Assembly: GCA_023131975.1 (NCBI GenBank)
Contig: JAGLYV010000099.1
Location: 1-58,443, forward strand
Direction of reading: 5' to 3'
DNA length: 58,443 nt
Source of the DNA: Candidatus Krumholzibacteriia bacterium
Lineage (GTDB): Bacteria > Krumholzibacteriota > Krumholzibacteriia > Krumholzibacteriales > Krumholzibacteriaceae
The notes under the pieces: generated by a model
Databases searched by the model: none
Seen by the model: the letters and a program-made list of their open reading frames with translations, nothing else
Told to the model about the DNA's origin: nothing
Part shown: positions 27,193-53,561 of the stretch, piece by piece
Layout: the number at the start of each line of letters is the position of its first letter
Numbering within the stretch: position 1 is the stretch's first letter
Made by a program: the position numbers and the translations under genes

Positions 27193-28641
27193 ATGACCGA
27201 ACGGCAGATCGGGAATTACAAGATACTCAAACAGATAGGCGTCGGCGGCATGGCCAAGGTCTATCTGGCCGTTCACAAGGACGTCCCTAACCTCAAGTTA
27301 GTCCTGAAGATCCTTTCCAATTCCCAGCATGCCGAACGCTTCATGCAGGAAGCCGACAAGCTCGCGCTTCTCGATGGAAACCCCAACATATGCCAGATCC
27401 GCCATTTCTTCGACCATGAGGACGAGCTCGTGATCGCCATGGAGTATATCGACGGATCATCGCTCGAACAGATGATCGAGGAAAAGGACAGTTTTTCCAT
27501 CACCGAGTCTCTCAAGATAGTCACCGACCTTCTTGGCGGGCTTGCCCCCGCTCACTCGCAGAATATCTACCACCGCGACCTCAAGCCGGGCAATATCATG
27601 TTCGATGGAAAAGGGGTCCTGAAGATCATCGATTTCGGTATCGCGAAGGGCAAGACCGACCCCCAGATGACGATAGTAGGCACCGCGGCAGGGACTCCCG
27701 AGTATATGGCCCCGGAACAGTTCACCGGCGGTGAAGACCTTGATTATTCGAAATGCGATATCTACGCTGTAGGAACTATACTGTACAGACTTATTACAGG
27801 AGAACTTCCCTTCAAGGGCGCCAACGAATTCGTCCTTCGCGACGCGAAGATGTTCGAAGAGCCACCTGTCCCTTCCAGCCTTGCGGGCAACATATCCAAA
27901 GAACTCGATAAGGTTATACTTAAGGCTATAGACAAGGATCCCGGAGCGAGATTCTCGTCCATGGAAGAGATGCGTACGGAGCTTTTAAGGATATCAGCGC
28001 AGCAGGGTGGCGCCGCGGGTAGCTCTGTGGCAGAAACAATGGCTAATATCGTAACGGGAGCGGATACCGTGGGTATTCCTTCCTCTCCTTCGCGCCGAAA
28101 AAAATCCCGTGCCTCAAAAAAAAGCGGCGGCAGAGGCCGTAAAAGCAGCAGCGGGAAGGTAGTTGGAATAGTTATCGGTGCTGTTGTCATAATCGCGGCA
28201 GCGATCTTCGGGCTGAGGATGATGTCGGGCGGAGATGAGACTCTTTCAGGCGAGGGCCAGCCCGGCAGCAGCCATGAGATGGGATCGGCAACGTCAGATA
28301 CTACAATGTCCGGAGATAATGCCGCTTCTACCCTGCCGGTCTCGTCCGGCGGCGAGTCCGGAACAACAGTATCCACGACTGCCGACGAAAAACCTGCAGT
28401 GAGAAGAAAACCCCCCGTAGCGCCCGGAATCCTGCTGGTCACCTCCAGGCCCGGTTACGCGGCTGTCTACATCAATGGAAAACTACAGGACGAACCAACA
28501 CCGTTCAGATTCGAACGCCCGCCGGGCAGATACACCGTCAGGATAGTCAAGGTCGTGGGCGGACGGGAGCTGACCCATACCGAAACGGTCACCGTCACAA
28601 GTGGCAAGATGATAAAAGTATCGCACAATTTCGAGGAATAG
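27193..28641 (+). CDS. Ser/Thr protein kinase with membrane anchor and PEGA domain
   Basis: The 482-aa protein has an N-terminal Hanks-type kinase with IGVGGMAKVY (residues 15-24), Lys39 for ATP, HRDLKPGN (127-134) and DFG (147-149), then APE at 173-175. A basic, Ser-rich juxtamembrane stretch leads to a single helix (323-342). A low-complexity linker then connects to a PEGA domain (about 411-480), which begins PGILLVTSRPGYAAVYINGK. The kinase is thus cytoplasmic and the PEGA outside, as in PknB-like sensors, with PEGA probably binding envelope material. It heads a run of envelope genes to 33853 and could control their export or assembly. Confidence 0.93.
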   Translation: MTERQIGNYKILKQIGVGGMAKVYLAVHKDVPNLKLVLKILSNSQHAERFMQEADKLALLDGNPNICQIRHFFDHEDELVIAMEYIDGSSLEQMIEEKDSFSITESLKIVTDLLGGLAPAHSQNIYHRDLKPGNIMFDGKGVLKIIDFGIAKGKTDPQMTIVGTAAGTPEYMAPEQFTGGEDLDYSKCDIYAVGTILYRLITGELPFKGANEFVLRDAKMFEEPPVPSSLAGNISKELDKVILKAIDKDPGARFSSMEEMRTELLRISAQQGGAAGSSVAETMANIVTGADTVGIPSSPSRRKKSRASKKSGGRGRKSSSGKVVGIVIGAVVIIAAAIFGLRMMSGGDETLSGEGQPGSSHEMGSATSDTTMSGDNAASTLPVSSGGESGTTVSTTADEKPAVRRKPPVAPGILLVTSRPGYAAVYINGKLQDEPTPFRFERPPGRYTVRIVKVVGGRELTHTETVTVTSGKMIKVSHNFEE

Positions 28642-34580: not shown

Positions 34581-36794
34581 CTACTTCAGCTTTGGCAGGC
34601 GTTCCTTCAGTCCGCCTTTGAAACTGAGTACTATCGTCTTATTGATATTCGGAAAAGTGATACTCCCCTCAGCTTCGAAAATCGCATACTTGTCCTGGAA
34701 TACTCTCCTGTCGCTCGGTTTTTTACCCCAATTGCACTCATGTTTCAGTTCGTCAATAGCTATATGGATGTCGTCCCCGGGCTTCCATTTGAGTTTGATC
34801 TCGTCGCCTTCGAGCAACTGGGTCTCGTTCGACCAGGATGGGTTACCCCCCGATCCTGTCACCTCTATGTGCAGATGCCCCATATCGGGCACGGTCTGAA
34901 GGACGCAGGTGTATGTCCTCCTCTTGTTCCACTTCTTCGCTTCGGCCAAAAAGGCATCTATCGCGGAGATCTGTGCCGAGTTCGTACTCGCGGAGAGTTT
35001 ACCTCTGATCGCCCCGAGCTTGCCTGGAACCTCTCCCAATACATAGGCGGGATCGGATGACCCGTTCACCTTCTCCTTGATCTGATTGTACTCGTTCAGG
35101 TTCGAACGGGTAGAACGGACCGTAGGAGCCGGACCGGGAACAGGAATGTCGAGGACTCCGAGAAGAACGCTACCCAGCCTTTTTTCCGCCTCGCTGTAGT
35201 TCTGCGCGTTCTCCAGGTTAAAATTGACCTGGTAATTTATCTTCTCCAGCACCGATGTATCGGCCGGATTCTTTACATATTTTGTGAACAGATCCCAATA
35301 ATAGAACACCCTGTCGGAACGCATATAGAGTACCGAAGTCTTCTCACCCACATGCATCTTCTCCAGGCTGCCGACAAGCCTTTTGTGGGTATTGTTCAGA
35401 ATCAGACTGTCGAGCCCCTGATCGTACTTGGGCTGAAGCTTCGGGTCGGAGATAACGTCCGCAAACCCGGTTATGATACTGTCCAGCTTGGCCACAGCCG
35501 GCCCGAGACTGAATTCGCTGTAGACATCCCTCATCCTCGAGGATGTAAGGCGATATTCGGTGAACATCTTTCTGACCAGCATCTTGTTGCCGTAACGGTT
35601 GTATGCCCTGATGATATCACTGCGCTGCGCGTCGGAAGTATTCAGGATATTGCCGTCGACAGAGTTCAGGACACTGTTCTCTACCCTGTAGGCGGAGCGA
35701 AGGAACCCCCCGAAATGAAAGAGATAGGGTAAAGAGAAAAGAAGTATCCAGATAATCGAAGCCACGGAGACATACCCCGCTATCTTCCGCATCACATTCA
35801 GCCTCTGGCTCCGTACTATAGAGTTCAGAATCCAGTAAAAAGGCCTGGTCACTCCACACGGATTGACCTTCTCCGGTGGCGCGTATATCGAACGTCCGAC
35901 ATCCACGCCGATTTTTTCCGGTCTGTTTCCGGTGCTCGACACGAAGAATATCTGAAAATCGAGCGTCCTGCCGACAACGATCCTGATAAACTCGCGGAGC
36001 TTTACCAGGATATTCCTGACCGAAGTGGCCCATTCCCTGTTTTCGGAAAGACTCTCAAAATCGAGGACCTTCTCGAGGAATTTTTCGTAATCTTCCGCGA
36101 TCACTTGCTCGTCCTCAGGCTGGACCAGCACCGTCTGGTCCTCGCCGCTGTATCCGGGAAGTATGTCGGACTTCGTGATAACGAGACCGACCGGGATCGG
36201 CAGACGCGACCTGAGCGGAACGATCCTCTCGAGAATATTAATGAATGTGGACGCCCTCGCCTGGACCTCAGGATCAGCACCCAGAATCTTCGGGTCAAAA
36301 AAGAAGAGAAGCCCGTCCGCCTCGACCATGAAATCCCTTATCTTCTCCGCATCGTCCGAATGCTCGGAGATCGACGCCGCGCGGCCACTGTAATCGTAAG
36401 AGACTACCGGGATCTTCGTGTTGCCATCCAGGATCGCCGTGAACTGAAGGATGATATCCTTTTCGGTCGGGTCGGGGAATTTCTTGGGGACAGGCCGGGC
36501 AGCGATCGTACCTGTACCGGAGCTGTCGCAATCGACCCCCTTGATGGCCATATCGTTCTTGAAGAACTCGCTGGCCGTCGCGTTATCCCTCACCGATATA
36601 TGAAAATCGTTAGTCGACTTGCTCTGTGTGTATAGTGATGTAAAAAAGACAGTCTTTCCGGTGTTCTCGTGCCCGAAGATCCCCACCCTGATGCCTTCCG
36701 GCCACTTGACGGGCGCGGCGACAGATCCGCCTTTGGACTTCTTTACTTTCTTCGAGCCCTTCTTTGCAAACTTGAATATTTTCGCGAAACCCAT
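34581..36794 (-). CDS. Membrane GTPase, candidate TssM-like component of the type VI system
   Basis: The 737-aa protein has an N-terminal GTPase-type domain: basic leader, P-loop GHENTGKT (41-48), a DYSGR switch-like motif (134-138), TKSD base motif (207-210) and FVSSTG (284-289). One membrane helix follows (338-360). The periplasmic part (361-737) is helical, then beta-rich near the end. TssM/IcmF proteins also join a cytoplasmic NTPase to a periplasmic domain, but they are about 1100-1200 aa with two N-terminal helices before the NTPase; those helices and the long C-terminus are absent here. It is 15 bp after the tail-anchored gene, after tssK. Divergent TssM or an unrelated replacement: both fit. 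Confidence 0.7.
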   Translation of the reverse strand: MGFAKIFKFAKKGSKKVKKSKGGSVAAPVKWPEGIRVGIFGHENTGKTVFFTSLYTQSKSTNDFHISVRDNATASEFFKNDMAIKGVDCDSSGTGTIAARPVPKKFPDPTEKDIILQFTAILDGNTKIPVVSYDYSGRAASISEHSDDAEKIRDFMVEADGLLFFFDPKILGADPEVQARASTFINILERIVPLRSRLPIPVGLVITKSDILPGYSGEDQTVLVQPEDEQVIAEDYEKFLEKVLDFESLSENREWATSVRNILVKLREFIRIVVGRTLDFQIFFVSSTGNRPEKIGVDVGRSIYAPPEKVNPCGVTRPFYWILNSIVRSQRLNVMRKIAGYVSVASIIWILLFSLPYLFHFGGFLRSAYRVENSVLNSVDGNILNTSDAQRSDIIRAYNRYGNKMLVRKMFTEYRLTSSRMRDVYSEFSLGPAVAKLDSIITGFADVISDPKLQPKYDQGLDSLILNNTHKRLVGSLEKMHVGEKTSVLYMRSDRVFYYWDLFTKYVKNPADTSVLEKINYQVNFNLENAQNYSEAEKRLGSVLLGVLDIPVPGPAPTVRSTRSNLNEYNQIKEKVNGSSDPAYVLGEVPGKLGAIRGKLSASTNSAQISAIDAFLAEAKKWNKRRTYTCVLQTVPDMGHLHIEVTGSGGNPSWSNETQLLEGDEIKLKWKPGDDIHIAIDELKHECNWGKKPSDRRVFQDKYAIFEAEGSITFPNINKTIVLSFKGGLKERLPKLK

Positions 36795-37755: not shown

Positions 37756-39207
37756 TCACACGACGTACAGGATAAGATCCGATTTGCTCAGTCCCGACAG
37801 CTTCTGAGGCTCCGGGCACCCCCGGAATATGAATGTCACCTGCCTGACGGATGCCGACTGAAGCATGTCCATCGGGTGCAGGACGACCTTGTTGCTGTAA
37901 CTGGTAATGTCCACTTCGACAGGATCGGTCTCGCCAAGGCCCCGGGCCTCGTTCACGCCGAGACGTACCTGCATCGAGCGCCACTGGCTGTCGGAGAAAA
38001 GATTCTTGTCGATCAGGGTCACCGTATCGTTCACGGGACAGGGTTCGGCCAGCTCCATTACCAGGTAACTGAGCTCCCCGACCTCTTCCAGCCTGCTCAC
38101 AGCCAGATCGCAGTTTTTGTATGTCTTTCCCTGGTAGGTAATCGTCTCGGTGGCAACGGCCTGATCGCTGAGCTGGTCGAGGCGCGTCTGCGAGAGGAAG
38201 GCCATCAGGGCCCTCATCACACCGAGGATACCGTCTACCATCCGTATCGACCCGGCTATATCCCTGTGGTTGTATTCAGAGAGAAGAAAGGCATCGATCG
38301 ACGACAGATATGTCCCGATGTCGGTCCCTGCCTCTTTCGTAAAGAATTTCTCGTTGAGATAGTCCTTCAGCGCGGGCTGCAGGTTGAGCAGAGACGAAGT
38401 AACACGGAAAAGCTTCCTGAAGTGAGCCATGAAGGCACCGGGATGCGGCGCGTTGCGACCCACCGTAAGATCGTCCAGGTGTGAGGACATGTGAGATACG
38501 AGAAAATGCGTCGTCTCCCTGAAGGCGCTCTGGAGCTTCGTCGATGCTCCTTCGAGTCCCTGGTCGGAAGAAGCCGCCAGATAAGCGTTTATCGAAAGCT
38601 TGAGAAGGTTCTCCACCCTGTTCCTGTAATCTATCGCTATCGCGTAAAGCCGGTCGTCAGCATTTATACTGACGCAGGGAGGGAAATAGTCATCGGCCGG
38701 CGAGACCTCGCTGCCATTGATGACAAGCAGCCCTATCTGGATATACATCGATTCGGGAAGATTCGGCGCCTGCCCGAGGAAAACACTGTAGGCAGGGATC
38801 TCATAGGGAATCCTCGGCACCTCTTCCGCGGGATCGGGCGACCCGACCTGGACTTTCTCCCCCGGTGTCACACCTATGAATACCGGGACCCTCGTCTCGT
38901 TGACATCGGCTTCCGCCTTGAGAACAGCGCCCTCGCTCGTCACTTCGCTGTATTCCACGGCCATTCCGCAGGGAAGGAGAGCCTGACAGTGACTGACTTC
39001 GACCTTCAACCTGTTGCCGCTGAGGCTCGCGTTCATCTTCAGCGGGGGCTGGGCAGCATCTTTTTTGACAAGCCCGAAGTTATCTCCCGCGCCTGTCGAA
39101 TGCCAGCGTACCAGCTCCTCGAAATATCTCTCCTGATCTCTCAGGTGACCCATCGAGAGAAGCATCCCGTCCTGCCAGTTCATCGATTGCAGTTTGAAAC
39201 CGTCCAT
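37756..39207 (-). CDS. tssK: Type VI secretion baseplate protein TssK
   Basis: The 483-aa protein starts with the family opening, W-Q-D-G-M-L-L-S-M-G-H-L-R-D-Q-E-R (residues 11-27), and has the three-part layout: a shoulder-like beta domain, a helical middle with FRETTHFLVSHMSSHLDDL near residue 235, and a C-terminal head binding the membrane. Length is close to the family (about 440-480). GAGG lies 7 bases before the ATG. TssK links the baseplate to the membrane complex, so the two downstream proteins are its probable partners. Confidence 0.9.
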   Translation of the reverse strand: MDGFKLQSMNWQDGMLLSMGHLRDQERYFEELVRWHSTGAGDNFGLVKKDAAQPPLKMNASLSGNRLKVEVSHCQALLPCGMAVEYSEVTSEGAVLKAEADVNETRVPVFIGVTPGEKVQVGSPDPAEEVPRIPYEIPAYSVFLGQAPNLPESMYIQIGLLVINGSEVSPADDYFPPCVSINADDRLYAIAIDYRNRVENLLKLSINAYLAASSDQGLEGASTKLQSAFRETTHFLVSHMSSHLDDLTVGRNAPHPGAFMAHFRKLFRVTSSLLNLQPALKDYLNEKFFTKEAGTDIGTYLSSIDAFLLSEYNHRDIAGSIRMVDGILGVMRALMAFLSQTRLDQLSDQAVATETITYQGKTYKNCDLAVSRLEEVGELSYLVMELAEPCPVNDTVTLIDKNLFSDSQWRSMQVRLGVNEARGLGETDPVEVDITSYSNKVVLHPMDMLQSASVRQVTFIFRGCPEPQKLSGLSKSDLILYVV

Positions 39208-39297: not shown

Positions 39298-40278
39298 TCA
39301 GAGGTATGTCGAATATCCCAGGTGACCCATAGTCCTTTCTGTGTGTACACGTGTTTTTTTATCGTGTGCCTGAGTTCCCTCGCCGTGTAGCGGAGGCCTC
39401 TCTCCATGCACCTGCCGATTCATCTTCTTTTCGACCTTGACCGATATTTTATAATCAAGGTCCCCCGGCATACAGAAGTCGAGGAATCTCTCCACCCGCC
39501 TTCGGACCTTTCCACCGGAAAGCAGCTCTCCCACCCTGTCCTTTGGAACTCCGGCAAATGACACCTCGTAGGTCGAGTCGCATTCCTCAAACTCGCTGCC
39601 GATGATCGTCTCGCAACCGAGGCGACCGGTCCTCGAACCGAGCCTGTACCTTATCTCCGAAGGAATCTCCGCCTTCGCCCTTACATTCTCCTTCATACTG
39701 ACCTCGAAGCCGGTCAACCTCTCCAGCACGGCGGATACCGCGGCGGGATTACCTCCCCAGCTGTGAAGCGAGGGGAGTATCGCCGCGATGAACATCATGT
39801 CACTGCCGCTTTTTACTCCATCATCGGAGTCAAACTCAAAAAGAGCCATAAACCGTCTAAGATGCTCCTCGTCCATGACCCCGAAACTGTTCTTCAGCGA
39901 ATGCATCCGCATCGCGGCCTCGTACCGGATCGTGGCCGCGTCGAAGGGAGCCATCAGGCATCGAGCCTCATCCTCCCATGTATTGTCAGTATCACGTATT
40001 CCCTGAAGTCCGTAGAAAAACTGGTACGGCATGAAATCGATGGCCGACTCGCATCCCACCTCGAGAGTCACCATCGTCCCACGGGTGAGCACAGCTCCTG
40101 GCTCCGGCTCCTGCGACCTGATCTCTCCGCGGTAGTTCTCGTAGATGCCGGCAGCCTTCATATGGATATTATCAAGGGAAATATCCATACTCTGGAGAAG
40201 ATTTATAGCCGTCAGATAATGAAACCTGAATCTCCGGCTTGTAAAATCGGGCATCTTCATGTCGACGCGGGATGTCAT
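39298..40278 (-). CDS. tssG: Type VI secretion baseplate protein TssG with PASTA-like insert
   Basis: The 326-aa protein begins like TssG (RRFRFHYLTAINLLQ) and continues with the FMPYQFFYGLQGI region. Between them, residues 20-75 read as a PASTA-like module: A-x3-L, then a G-x-I-x3-QEPEPG pattern (51-61) and RGTMVTLEVG (66-75), the usual strand ending. The C-terminal part holds a conserved FCMPGDLDYKI strand and ends in a short basic tail. Start overlaps the tssF stop by 4 bp (ATGA), so they are coupled. TssG forms the baseplate wedge with TssF and TssE. A PASTA-like domain in TssG is not something I know of in other systems. Confidence 0.85.
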   Translation of the reverse strand: MTSRVDMKMPDFTSRRFRFHYLTAINLLQSMDISLDNIHMKAAGIYENYRGEIRSQEPEPGAVLTRGTMVTLEVGCESAIDFMPYQFFYGLQGIRDTDNTWEDEARCLMAPFDAATIRYEAAMRMHSLKNSFGVMDEEHLRRFMALFEFDSDDGVKSGSDMMFIAAILPSLHSWGGNPAAVSAVLERLTGFEVSMKENVRAKAEIPSEIRYRLGSRTGRLGCETIIGSEFEECDSTYEVSFAGVPKDRVGELLSGGKVRRRVERFLDFCMPGDLDYKISVKVEKKMNRQVHGERPPLHGEGTQAHDKKTRVHTERTMGHLGYSTYL

Positions 40279-41942
40279 GTCTTTATCATCTCCAGTTTAA
40301 ACTGGCTGTTTATCGATGTACGAGCCTTGAGAAACGAACCGAGACGGGTTTTCAGCAGTTCGATCTCGTCATCCGAGTAGAACCGCTTGCCATCTACCGT
40401 CACATTGACGACAACGCATTTTCTCACACCACCGCCGGTGCGCATGACACCTCTCTCGCATCCGGCCTGGACTATCCTCTCGTCGAAAGTCCTTACCCAG
40501 CTAGTCAACTGATCAAACGACATCGCGCGGTCACGCCCGCGAAGACGCGAGGATATCTCGGTGGTCACCTGCTGCTGCGTCTTGGCCGGGATGGCTCCGC
40601 TGACCGGTATCACATTCTTCAGCGATACGATCCCCGGATGGTTTTCGTAGAGTTCGGTGATCTTTCCTGCCGAGATCCCGTTCGCCTCTGTGCCCGATGT
40701 TATAGAATAATTGACCGTTATCGAGTCGGGAGGAAGCTCGATCTCACCCGAAAAATCAAACCACAGGGTGAGGCGCCCGTTCTGTTCGATCATATTATAG
40801 AATCTATCTCCTCCCGAAGAGAGGGCTTCATGCTGAGCCACATAACTTTTTCCACTCGAATCAGTCACCGAGATTATCTCCATTACGCTGTCCGGGTCGT
40901 CGGGGACCTCGATCTCTATGAGCCTGTTACCTCCGGTATGCTTGAAAAGGGTCTGTTCGTACCTGTTGACCGCGATAAAGCAATCGAGATCGATCCTCAC
41001 CGGCGATTGAAGGACCGCCCTGTCTCCACCCGCGGGCAGGACTATCTTTACCCAGAACAGTTCGCCGCTGTTTTCAGGCAGGGACACCCCGGCATCAGAA
41101 GCCATCCTCGTAAAACCGCTGTCCGGCTCGCCCCTTCTCCAGGGGGTTATGAACTCCTCGGGAATAACCACAAAACTGTTCTCCAGGGGATTGAACAGAT
41201 CGCTGCTGCGCCTGAGGCCACCCCAGTCGATCGTCTCTTCTCCTGCCGTGAAAATATCGTCGATACTGCCTGAAAGTCCCGGGCAGAAGCTGCCGTCCGC
41301 GTAAAACGATCCATCGATGCACGGAGACCACCGGGCCCATCTGAGCTGCTTTAAAGCCTCCTCACTCCCCCTGAGAAACAACATCGCCCCGGTAAAATCC
41401 TCTACCTGTCCTCCATGCTCGACCGCCATATAGAGCACCGCTTCACCCTCTGAATATGCCGCCGGTTGCATCCTCGCCGAGATCTGTGTGCTGCCGGCCT
41501 GCGCAGGCGATATATCGCGAATATTTCCTCCAGCTACGAAATAGAGATTCTTTACCTTCGCGCTGAGAAGCTTTTCATTCCTCAGTGATGAGAAAAAGAA
41601 GGTCTTCCCCGCTTCGCGTTCCTCCTTGTAGAAGAATCTCGTCCGGGGATCGACATAGATCACCGGGTCGGAAGGCTCGGCCTGGATAACGGTGAATGCC
41701 GGCACGGGCCACCTGAGGCTTTCGGGACAGAGCGACCGCAGCAGCGCGTTCGAAGCCTTTGTCCATGTATCCACGATCCTGCCGTCGATCGAGGAAAGCT
41801 GGCTTGAATACAGCTTCAGCATGATCCGCAGTATGGGATCCATCCTGTCGGGTGATTCAGGAATATCAGCGTTCCAGGAACGAAGCTCCCTGTGCATACC
41901 CTGAAATATCTCTTCGGCGGTCTTCGATTTTTCACTGTTCAT
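40275..41942 (-). CDS. tssF: Type VI secretion baseplate protein TssF
   Basis: The 555-aa protein matches TssF in order: MDPILRIMLKLYSSQLSSIDGRI near the N-terminus, LCPESLRWPVPAFTVIQAEPSD with the domain switch, a beta-rich middle, and the C-terminal FDQLTSWVRTFDERIVQAGCERG segment. ATG 41942 is preferred, one base after the tssE stop; a TTG nine codons earlier overlaps tssE and lacks a ribosome site. Two TssF with one TssG and two TssE build the wedge. Length is close to Bacteroidota TssF; Proteobacterial forms are usually somewhat longer. Confidence 0.9.
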   Translation of the reverse strand: MNSEKSKTAEEIFQGMHRELRSWNADIPESPDRMDPILRIMLKLYSSQLSSIDGRIVDTWTKASNALLRSLCPESLRWPVPAFTVIQAEPSDPVIYVDPRTRFFYKEEREAGKTFFFSSLRNEKLLSAKVKNLYFVAGGNIRDISPAQAGSTQISARMQPAAYSEGEAVLYMAVEHGGQVEDFTGAMLFLRGSEEALKQLRWARWSPCIDGSFYADGSFCPGLSGSIDDIFTAGEETIDWGGLRRSSDLFNPLENSFVVIPEEFITPWRRGEPDSGFTRMASDAGVSLPENSGELFWVKIVLPAGGDRAVLQSPVRIDLDCFIAVNRYEQTLFKHTGGNRLIEIEVPDDPDSVMEIISVTDSSGKSYVAQHEALSSGGDRFYNMIEQNGRLTLWFDFSGEIELPPDSITVNYSITSGTEANGISAGKITELYENHPGIVSLKNVIPVSGAIPAKTQQQVTTEISSRLRGRDRAMSFDQLTSWVRTFDERIVQAGCERGVMRTGGGVRKCVVVNVTVDGKRFYSDDEIELLKTRLGSFLKARTSINSQFKLEMIKT

Positions 41943-41943
41943 A

Positions 41944-42318
41944 TCAACCGACGTTGAAGGTCTCTTCAAACCTCTTCTCGTCTTTTTCCTCCCGGTAGTT
42001 TCCGATCACCTTCACAGCCACACCCAGTGGGTGGTTCGGTCCCGACTCGATATTCATCAATGACACTGACACATTGTACAGCCGCGGCTCAAACTTGTTG
42101 ATCGCGTTACGGACACTCCCCTGCACGTCAGATCTGTTTACCATGAATAGATCGGAATATTCCCTGTCCCACAGGTCGCACCCGAATTCCTCGTCGAAAG
42201 GCAGTGTACCCTTGCGCGTGCTGAGGATGAGTCCGATGGAATTGGAAACGGAATCGTAAAGGTCTGTCTTTTTCAGGTACCCCTTGCGAAGGGCGAATGG
42301 CAACGATAGATACTCCAT
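41944..42318 (-). CDS. tssE: Type VI secretion baseplate protein TssE (gp25-like)
   Basis: The 124-aa protein has the gp25 (GPW) core: SVSNSIGLILSTRKGTLPFDEEFGCDLWDREYS, and the invariant EPR at residues 77-79 (NKFEPRLYNV). It polymerises the sheath from the baseplate. Length is usual for TssE. It lies 30 bp after vgrG and 1 bp before tssF. The ATG has GGGATGATG as a weak ribosome site. Confidence 0.92.
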   Translation of the reverse strand: MEYLSLPFALRKGYLKKTDLYDSVSNSIGLILSTRKGTLPFDEEFGCDLWDREYSDLFMVNRSDVQGSVRNAINKFEPRLYNVSVSLMNIESGPNHPLGVAVKVIGNYREEKDEKRFEETFNVG

Positions 42319-50441: not shown

Positions 50442-52094
50442 CTAGGTCCTGTCTATCGTATCCCACTGGTTCTCGTTCCCTCCAGGCGGGTCGTAATGTC
50501 TGGGCAACTCCTTGAAACGTATCCTCGTGTCGGTGCTGCCAGTATGAAAATTCATCACGCATTCGAGTTTTTCGACATCCAGCAACTCGAGAAGTTCGTG
50601 CCCGAATTCGTGACCGATCACCTTGTTGACATGTGCTTCGGTATCGGTGTCTTCCTGGACCCAGGCCGGATTGCCGCTCAGTCCCCCCAGGGGCCACCAG
50701 ATACCCTCGGTAATCGGATGGGCGCTGCCCAGGGCGCTGCCCAGGGTGATGACCCTGGTGGTAGTATTTGTAGCCGTAATCGTTATCGTCTCGTAATTAC
50801 CCGGTCCACCGAACCGGTATTCTCTTGGAGTGAGATAGGCCATCGTCCGCGCGGACAGGTGCGACCCCATCGTTATCGTCGTGGCTCCCGCCGCCGCGGC
50901 CGTTCCCAGGTTGAAAAGCCAGGCCAGCTTTTTCACTATCACTATCTTTTTGCCCGTACCGGTGAGAGCATCCGTTACCAACTGTTGACCGGCCGAGACC
51001 CTTCCCGCCTCGAGGACCAGAGCACCGGCGCCGCCTGGATCAAAATTGACGTCGAGCGCTCCTCCGTCGCTGCTGTAGTCTGTCAGCCTGATCGTCGCGA
51101 CGGCCTGCTTGTAGAATCCCCTGAGAGCTGTCTGGGTGTTGGCAACGCTGAAGCTCGGCCTGCTCAGCCTGGTCGAGGCAGAACTGCTGTCCCAGACCTT
51201 GGCGACCTTCGCGGTATATGACTTCTCCGCGTAAACGTTGACCGCCAGGCTGGCGCATATCGGGCCGTCATCGGTGTTTGCCCTGGCATGTATCAGCGTC
51301 TCCGCCCTGGTCTTGTTTTTCCCATCGATGTACATGGTGAATGTCATCGGAGGCACGCCGTCGAGGACAGCCTCGGCAGTCGTGTCATCGTCGGAAGTAA
51401 AATGAATATTCCCCGGACTGCAACCTCCCGCAACAGTGACCTGCACCCTGGTCCTCGTATTCTTCTTTACCGAGATATGCGGAGTCTCTCCGTCCGGCGT
51501 GGGGTCGTCCATATCGGTACCCATCCCGTCGAAGGCGTATCCCTGGATCGAAGATGCGGCGAATGTCACCGAGAAGACGGTGACCCTGGTGACCGCCGAT
51601 GGCATCGGCTCTCCCCCTTCGGGTGTGAAACGCACCTCGATCGCCTCATCCAGGCCTCTTGCGCTTACATCGTCGCCCGCTGTAATCGTAACGGTATCGG
51701 TAGTCTCATCGGTGAGCGTTATCTTTGAGCTGGAAGTGGCCCATAACCAGGCGCCGTCAGCGCCATCGTCGTGTACCGCTCTCATGCGGACCGATCCACC
51801 CACAAGGATTATCAGGGGCGGACGCGCGGTCCCATCTTCCGCCCTTATCCTGTATGGAGGGGGCGCGGTGAATTCGGCCGTCCCCCCACTCGGCGCGGGA
51901 GCGACATTACCCTCTGCTCCGGGGATGTAGACCCTGTCCCCCGGCATGAGTCTGTCCGGGCCACTGCGCGTATCGCGAAGCTCTTCGTTGTTGTCATCAT
52001 CCCATATCGCCTGCCAGCCGCCCTCCACCCTGTAGGTCCGGGCAAGTGCCGAAAGCGTGTCCCCACTTCTCACTGTATATTCGAACCCGGGCAA
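50442..52094 (-). CDS. LysM protein with C-terminal HExxH metallopeptidase motif, candidate effector
   Basis: The start is TTG 52094, set by AGGAGG (52103-52108) 8 bases upstream. The 550-aa protein opens with a LysM-like module (YTVRSGDTLSALARTYRV ... MPGDRVYIPG, residues 6-58) for peptidoglycan or baseplate contact. A long Ig-like middle follows (about 80-440). The C-terminus has HEFGHELLELLDVEKLECVMNF: His495, Glu496 and His499 of the zinc motif, then Cys512 and a Met-turn-like Met514, resembling archaemetzincin-type spacing but without the usual HxxGxxH. No signal peptide is present, as expected for type VI cargo. It lies between the HEAT-like lipoprotein and the Ig-like gene. Confidence 0.7.
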   Translation of the reverse strand: MPGFEYTVRSGDTLSALARTYRVEGGWQAIWDDDNNEELRDTRSGPDRLMPGDRVYIPGAEGNVAPAPSGGTAEFTAPPPYRIRAEDGTARPPLIILVGGSVRMRAVHDDGADGAWLWATSSSKITLTDETTDTVTITAGDDVSARGLDEAIEVRFTPEGGEPMPSAVTRVTVFSVTFAASSIQGYAFDGMGTDMDDPTPDGETPHISVKKNTRTRVQVTVAGGCSPGNIHFTSDDDTTAEAVLDGVPPMTFTMYIDGKNKTRAETLIHARANTDDGPICASLAVNVYAEKSYTAKVAKVWDSSSASTRLSRPSFSVANTQTALRGFYKQAVATIRLTDYSSDGGALDVNFDPGGAGALVLEAGRVSAGQQLVTDALTGTGKKIVIVKKLAWLFNLGTAAAAGATTITMGSHLSARTMAYLTPREYRFGGPGNYETITITATNTTTRVITLGSALGSAHPITEGIWWPLGGLSGNPAWVQEDTDTEAHVNKVIGHEFGHELLELLDVEKLECVMNFHTGSTDTRIRFKELPRHYDPPGGNENQWDTIDRT

Positions 52095-53117: not shown

Positions 53118-53561
53118 TCAATCTTCCTGCACCTCGTACGTCCCGGGCAGCAGCTTCTCTATCACTTTCTTCACCTGCTCACCAAGCATTTTGTACGATT
53201 GTTTTGAAAACTCTATCTCAAACGCATATCCATAATCCCCGCGAAGCACAAAGAAATGCTTCTTGAACAATTTCACTCCATCCACCGGGATCCACCGGTA
53301 GACGAATTCGTATGAGGGGTAACATCCCGCTATCGTCGTCTCCTCATCCTTCAGGACCTCCACCCCCTGGAAAGCTTTCAATACTGGCTCGGTCCTGACC
53401 CGGGCAAATTCCGCGATATCATCCTGCTGAAGATGACGGTCGATGACCAGCATCAACTGGTGGTCCTTCTCATCGATCTTCGGCCCTCTGAAATAGTAGA
53501 CGGTCTGGTCTTCCCAACCACCCGGTAGATCAAAATGAAATCTGTTTTTGTCGTCACTCAT
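53118..53561 (-). CDS. DUF1795 (DcrB/Eag-like) protein, candidate effector chaperone
   Basis: The 147-aa protein fits the DUF1795 fold: a first strand FHFDLPGGWEDQTVYYFRGP, ...LMLVIDRHL, a helix IAEFARVRTEPVLKAFQGV, the strands ETTIAGCYPSYEFVYRW and KHFFVLRGDYGYAFEIEFS, and a terminal helix. The order and length match Eag chaperones, which hold the transmembrane segments of type VI effectors before export. In this locus it sits among cargo-like genes, which supports an Eag role. A membrane-spanning effector partner has not been found in the window. Confidence 0.75.
   Translation of the reverse strand: MSDDKNRFHFDLPGGWEDQTVYYFRGPKIDEKDHQLMLVIDRHLQQDDIAEFARVRTEPVLKAFQGVEVLKDEETTIAGCYPSYEFVYRWIPVDGVKLFKKHFFVLRGDYGYAFEIEFSKQSYKMLGEQVKKVIEKLLPGTYEVQED

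Follow-up and report, generated by a model that had tools for sequence, protein, structure and literature searches.

A predicted PASTA-fold domain forms the N-terminus of a divergent TssG in Krumholzibacteriota and Zixibacteriota

A divergent group of TssG proteins, which are wedge components of the type VI secretion system (T6SS) baseplate, carries a PASTA domain as its N-terminus. We analyzed one member in a 58,443-nucleotide stretch of contig JAGLYV010000099.1 from a Candidatus Krumholzibacteriia bacterium (assembly GCA_023131975.1), here called the window. The PASTA-like segment of this protein is real. A search of openly licensed papers found none that joins TssG and PASTA, nor any relevant one on PASTA domains in baseplates or type VI secretion. 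One paper places a PASTA-domain protein inside a Salmonella T6SS island and lists it as not T6SS linked. PASTA is usually taken to indicate a wall-binding module outside the cytoplasm, and a whole lineage of cytoplasmic baseplate proteins that carries it suggests that the fold also serves assembly. Furthermore, PASTA-type TssG identifies a T6SS subtype that occurs in two phyla and draws attention to the least understood part of TssG, its N-terminal ~120 residues.

A PASTA domain in a bona fide TssG

The open reading frame studied here is TssG by profile match and by fold. Pfam T6SS_TssG (PF06996) matched residues 136-288 (E 1.5e-15; 57.7 bits against a cut-off of 24.6), covering only profile positions 133-285, and the top Foldseek matches of the predicted structure were 6n38_G and 6giy_C, both solved T6SS TssG chains. 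The gene shares a T6SS operon with tssE, tssF, and tssK (Table 1), and its ATG overlaps the tssF stop codon. The whole row encodes TssB, TssC, Hcp, VgrG, TssE, TssF, TssG, TssK, a TssL-like protein, and a TssM-like protein with a GTPase domain; the order TssB-C-Hcp-VgrG-E-F-G-K was also found in Zixibacteriota. The window copy of tssF had no Pfam or NCBIfam match.

Table 1. Coordinates of tssG, its parts, and its neighbors in the window
Feature	Positions	Strand	Description and basis
tssG	39298..40278	-	326 aa, T6SS baseplate wedge protein; Pfam, Foldseek, place in an operon syntenic in two phyla
Leader MTSRVDMK	40255..40278	-	8 residues ahead of the PASTA domain; sequence reading
PASTA-fold domain (predicted)	40054..40254	-	TssG residues 9-75; family profiles, profile comparison, model, PDB matches
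Linker	39982..40053	-	TssG residues 76-99, conserved SAxDxMPYQFFYGL, leading into the core helix; consensus and column conservation
TssG body	39415..39981	-	TssG residues 100-288, core-bundle helix 100-131 and C-terminal wedge domain; Pfam, model, fold search
tssF	40275..41969	-	Wedge partner of TssG; assigned by size, order, and synteny
tssE	41944..42318	-	gp25-like; Pfam GPW_gp25, E 4.5e-14
tssK	37756..39207	-	NCBIfam VI_chp_4, E 1.3e-10, under that profile's cut-off

Two other genes in the T6SS gene row were noted. The first (50442-52094, minus strand) encodes a 550-residue protein that matches LysM at its N-terminus (E 2e-4, above the cut-off) and has an HEFGH zinc-peptidase-like motif; it is possibly a wall-directed T6SS effector. 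The second (53118-53561, minus strand) encodes a DcrB-family protein (E 1.7e-5, just below the cut-off), which resembles Eag-type effector chaperones.

Against the window protein alone, the PASTA profile (PF03793) matched residues 48-74 with E 0.0081 and 16.5 bits, below the Pfam gathering cut-off of 23.2 bits. Taken by itself, such a score would fit a chance resemblance, with a Q.P.PG turn falling within an ordinary helix-strand segment. However, the HMM search proposed in a preliminary description of this DNA, which fell short on the single sequence, succeeded across the family. All nine members of a first family alignment matched PASTA (best 4e-6). In a larger alignment, 58 of 59 did so (E<=1; best 5.3e-7). 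Relatives from the same family are Candidatus Krumholzibacteriia metagenome-assembled genomes (MAGs). Three relatives exceeded the cut-off (L014 with 25.0 bits, L010 with 23.7, and L003 with 23.4 with neighbors), and two others remained below it (L015 and L016).

We also compared a profile of 66 TssG N-terminal domains (one pair duplicate) with a profile built from the PASTA domains of proteins other than TssG in the same genomes. The two aligned with a probability of 94.5% and a score of 39.1, compared with no more than 18.5 for 100 column-shuffled control profiles. Individually, all 66 domains scored at least 6.4 bits, whereas the best of 1320 shuffled sequences reached 6.1. Structural matches to PASTA were likewise limited to PASTA-type TssG. 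The family-wide, shuffled, and canonical TssG controls lead us to reject a chance match, which we consider extremely improbable.

The domain begins at residue 9 with MPDF, which corresponds to the "VPDV" strand of PASTA; we therefore place the domain at residues 9-75. The preliminary description had assigned it to residues 20-75. That segment maps to 40221-40054, reads as quoted, and is a genuine match, but it omits the first part of the domain.

Predicted structure agreed with the profiles. The whole-protein model was moderate (mean pLDDT 59, built from 9 sequences), with block means of 61-88 in the PASTA domain except for 51 at residues 41-50. In this model, residues 9-75 are predicted to adopt the PASTA fold, a helix (21-30) on a three-stranded sheet (38-43, 52-57, and 70-75). 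Foldseek matched the PASTA structures 5nod and 5e0y, both with a probability of 1.00, the latter with a TM score of 0.82 (by target length) and an rmsd of 1.9 Å over 72 columns. Among viral structures, the fold search matched proteins of phage tails and baseplates, and a single PASTA protein ranked low in the results. Profiles, predicted structure, and fold search thus all bear out the claim that a real TssG contains a PASTA-fold domain.

Canonical TssG and the distribution of the PASTA-type form

Canonical TssG proteins, which match the Pfam profile over its full length, occur in both phyla too and served as the control. None of 15 had a PASTA match, even at E 10. A canonical TssG modeled in the identical way had significant PDB matches to TssG only, and PASTA entries were absent among its 50 best PDB matches. 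In profile comparison, the canonical N-terminal part matched PASTA with a probability of 0.1%. Therefore, the PASTA domain is not the ordinary TssG fold. The preliminary description had raised the possibility that the segment is simply the N-terminal fold of every TssG; the canonical model and its PDB search reject this, and canonical TssG proteins of the same phyla lack PASTA.

The same description regarded the domain as an insertion that follows the usual TssG N-terminus and precedes FMPYQFFYG, a view that we could not uphold. Only the leader of 8 residues, short and not conserved among relatives, precedes the domain, and a full-length profile alignment of PASTA-type with canonical TssG (E 1.2e-17) sets the domain against the canonical N-terminal subdomain. 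Therefore, the PASTA domain is no insertion but the N-terminus itself, where canonical TssG carries another small alpha/beta domain. The first ~100 positions of that canonical subdomain (TssG profile 1-130) were unmatched in every PASTA-type TssG.

The canonical subdomain is also predicted to be alpha-beta-beta-beta, so a very old common origin with the PASTA domain is possible, and the latter could be a diverged form of the canonical domain rather than a replacement. On that account, the alpha-beta-beta-beta domains at the N-terminus of all TssG proteins derive from one PASTA-like ancestor, whose signature is recognizable only in Krumholzibacteriota and Zixibacteriota. The shared prediction at the same place is consistent with it, as is a weak helix similarity between PASTA-type and canonical N-termini in profile comparison. 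When a Bacteroidota TssG is aligned with the PASTA-TssG profile, the two also stay in register across the domain (probability 96% over 281 columns), and related TssG proteins in the Zixibacteriota survey carry a non-PASTA segment at the same position. However, neither Pfam, Foldseek, nor profile comparison finds PASTA in canonical TssG, and the degenerate N-termini also align with PASTA without significance. We consider a single PASTA-like ancestor rather unlikely and prefer replacement of the canonical domain.

Contrary to a first impression, the domain is not peculiar to the window genome. In the phylum of the window, 10 of 80 genomes have PASTA-type TssG and 7 have full-length canonical TssG. 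In the phylum of the Zixibacteriota survey, a TssG match was found in 69 of 133 genomes (non-canonical in 60, canonical in 10, and both in one). We read all 60 non-canonical TssG proteins, and all but five carry the MPDF...Q.P.PG domain. As a rule, the divergent TssG proteins of Krumholzibacteriota and Zixibacteriota have the PASTA domain, within a syntenic T6SS operon. A scan of viral contigs turned up no relative, and a plasmid search with a PASTA-type TssG returned only one annotated TssG, a weak match over the C-terminal part.

The five exceptions (L079, L099, L107, L110, and L111) have a non-PASTA segment at the same position, perhaps a PASTA domain that has decayed. A quick tree built from the TssG body places them on one side of a branch with a support of 84, under the 95 mark, and canonical TssG on one side of another branch with a support of 99. 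The survey genome with both a canonical and a PASTA-type TssG (G165; L059 and L104) may contain two kinds of T6SS coexisting in one cell, or it may be a mixed MAG.

Proposed role in the baseplate wedge

The preliminary description suggested a protein-protein contact, and this is still the most plausible role. We think that the PASTA domain is probably a cytoplasmic structural module that replaces the canonical alpha/beta domain and fixes the wedge to a neighbor, rather than one that binds peptidoglycan. In enteroaggregative Escherichia coli (EAEC), TssG was modeled from residue 122, with no model assigned to the N-terminal ~120 residues, and the first modeled TssG helices combine with two TssF chains into a stem of three helices (PMC6300606). 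This stem (TssG residues 122-177 plus TssF) touches TssC of the sheath, and TssK attaches not to the N-terminus of TssG but to two loops in its C-terminal domain (PMC6300606). The PASTA domain of the window protein ends 24 residues before the counterpart of the stem helix (window residues 100-131).

Because of this spacing, and because TssK binds C-terminal loops, we infer that the PASTA domain packs where the TssF2-TssG stem ends, at a distance from TssK, and is in fixed contact with another protein of the baseplate or sheath. By alignment, it stands directly before the long helix that joins two TssF helices in solved T6SS baseplates as the wedge stem facing the sheath; the role of the stem is taken from the EAEC structure. 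The domain may fix the wedge to a neighbor such as TssE, the next wedge, or the first ring of the sheath, and so would take over the function of the small alpha/beta domain that canonical TssG has at this place. A direct contact with TssK, as the preliminary description suggested, is not favored, given where TssK binds TssG in EAEC (PMC6300606).

Sequence conservation is consistent with a contact of this kind. In four pairs, the dN/dS of the PASTA domain was 0.11-0.27, which indicates purifying selection. Conservation is strong in the ENYKGE loop and the Q.P.PG turn, which fit a fixed protein contact. G44, N48, Y49, G51, E52, Q56, and P58 are invariant or nearly so and are likely the contact and turn residues.

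A different role would be to bind peptidoglycan fragments or a PASTA-kinase partner, which would couple T6SS assembly to the state of the cell wall. Kinase PASTA domains bind muropeptides, and a Ser/Thr kinase gene lies in the window (27193-28641, plus strand), beyond the T6SS genes and on the opposite strand; its product has a PEGA domain at the C-terminal end. However, this kinase has PEGA, not PASTA, and lies ~6 kb past the end of the T6SS operon. TssG is also cytoplasmic, and only 8 residues precede the domain, which leaves no space for a signal peptide. Therefore, peptidoglycan binding is unlikely, and we give coupling to the wall or to a kinase very little credence beside a structural contact in the wedge.

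Comparison with known systems

The TssG domain shares its fold and length with the PASTA domains (PF03793) of PknB, StkP, PrkC, PBP2x, and PBP1. It also shares the VPDV start, the A..L helix, the G.I..Q.P.PG turn, and the terminal strand. However, kinase and penicillin-binding protein PASTA domains are tandem copies outside the membrane, whereas that of TssG is single, N-terminal, and part of a cytoplasmic protein. Its conserved ENY(K/R)GE loop is also unusual compared with known PASTA domains. The usual PASTA setting (extracellular, in a kinase or penicillin-binding protein, and binding peptidoglycan) is typical of known members but not required for the fold family; the domain described here differs from it in belonging to a cytoplasmic baseplate protein. 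Canonical TssG, from EAEC (6n38 and 6giy) or from other Krumholzibacteriota genomes, has the core helix and C-terminal wedge domain in common with the window protein but differs in an N-terminal subdomain that is non-PASTA by sequence and fold.

Two Bacteroidota TssG proteins are closer to the window type than to the canonical type. That of Hymenobacter volaticus matched the window-type profile with 96% versus 8% for the canonical profile, and that of Bacteroides finegoldii with 41% versus 0.1%. Both belong to T6SSiii clusters on plasmids and have a segment in the PASTA position that lacks the PASTA signature. TssC (PF17541) and Hcp/TssD (PF17642) of the window are also of the Pfam types of Bacteroidota T6SSiii. 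The membrane complex of T6SSiii consists of TssN, TssO, TssP, TssQ, and TssR; the window open reading frames scanned had no TssN, TssO, or TssR family match and instead included the TssL-like/TssM-like pair. The TssM-like membrane protein (34581-36794, minus strand) adjoins the TssL-like protein, and its N-terminal part matches Double-GTPase 2 (E 1.6e-7). This pair, together with TssC and Hcp of the Bacteroidota type, makes a mixed T6SS build.

A further likeness, and a precedent for the proposed structural role, is with phage baseplates. In phage A-1(L), the wedge helical bundle surrounds a LysM domain like that of T4 gp53 (PMC10966104). In T4 gp53 and A-1(L) gp16, this fold, which is known for wall binding, serves as a structural part of a contractile baseplate that is assembled in the cytoplasm, beside the wedge helical bundle (PMC10966104). 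No gp53-like gene was recognized in the window operon. The phage LysM domain differs from the PASTA domain of TssG in being an unrelated fold and a separate protein, whereas PASTA is fused to the wedge protein. We tentatively raise the possibility, which we think is less probable than not by some way, that the PASTA-TssG fusion is the same joint as the phage LysM protein (gp53), with two unrelated wall-binding folds recruited to it independently.
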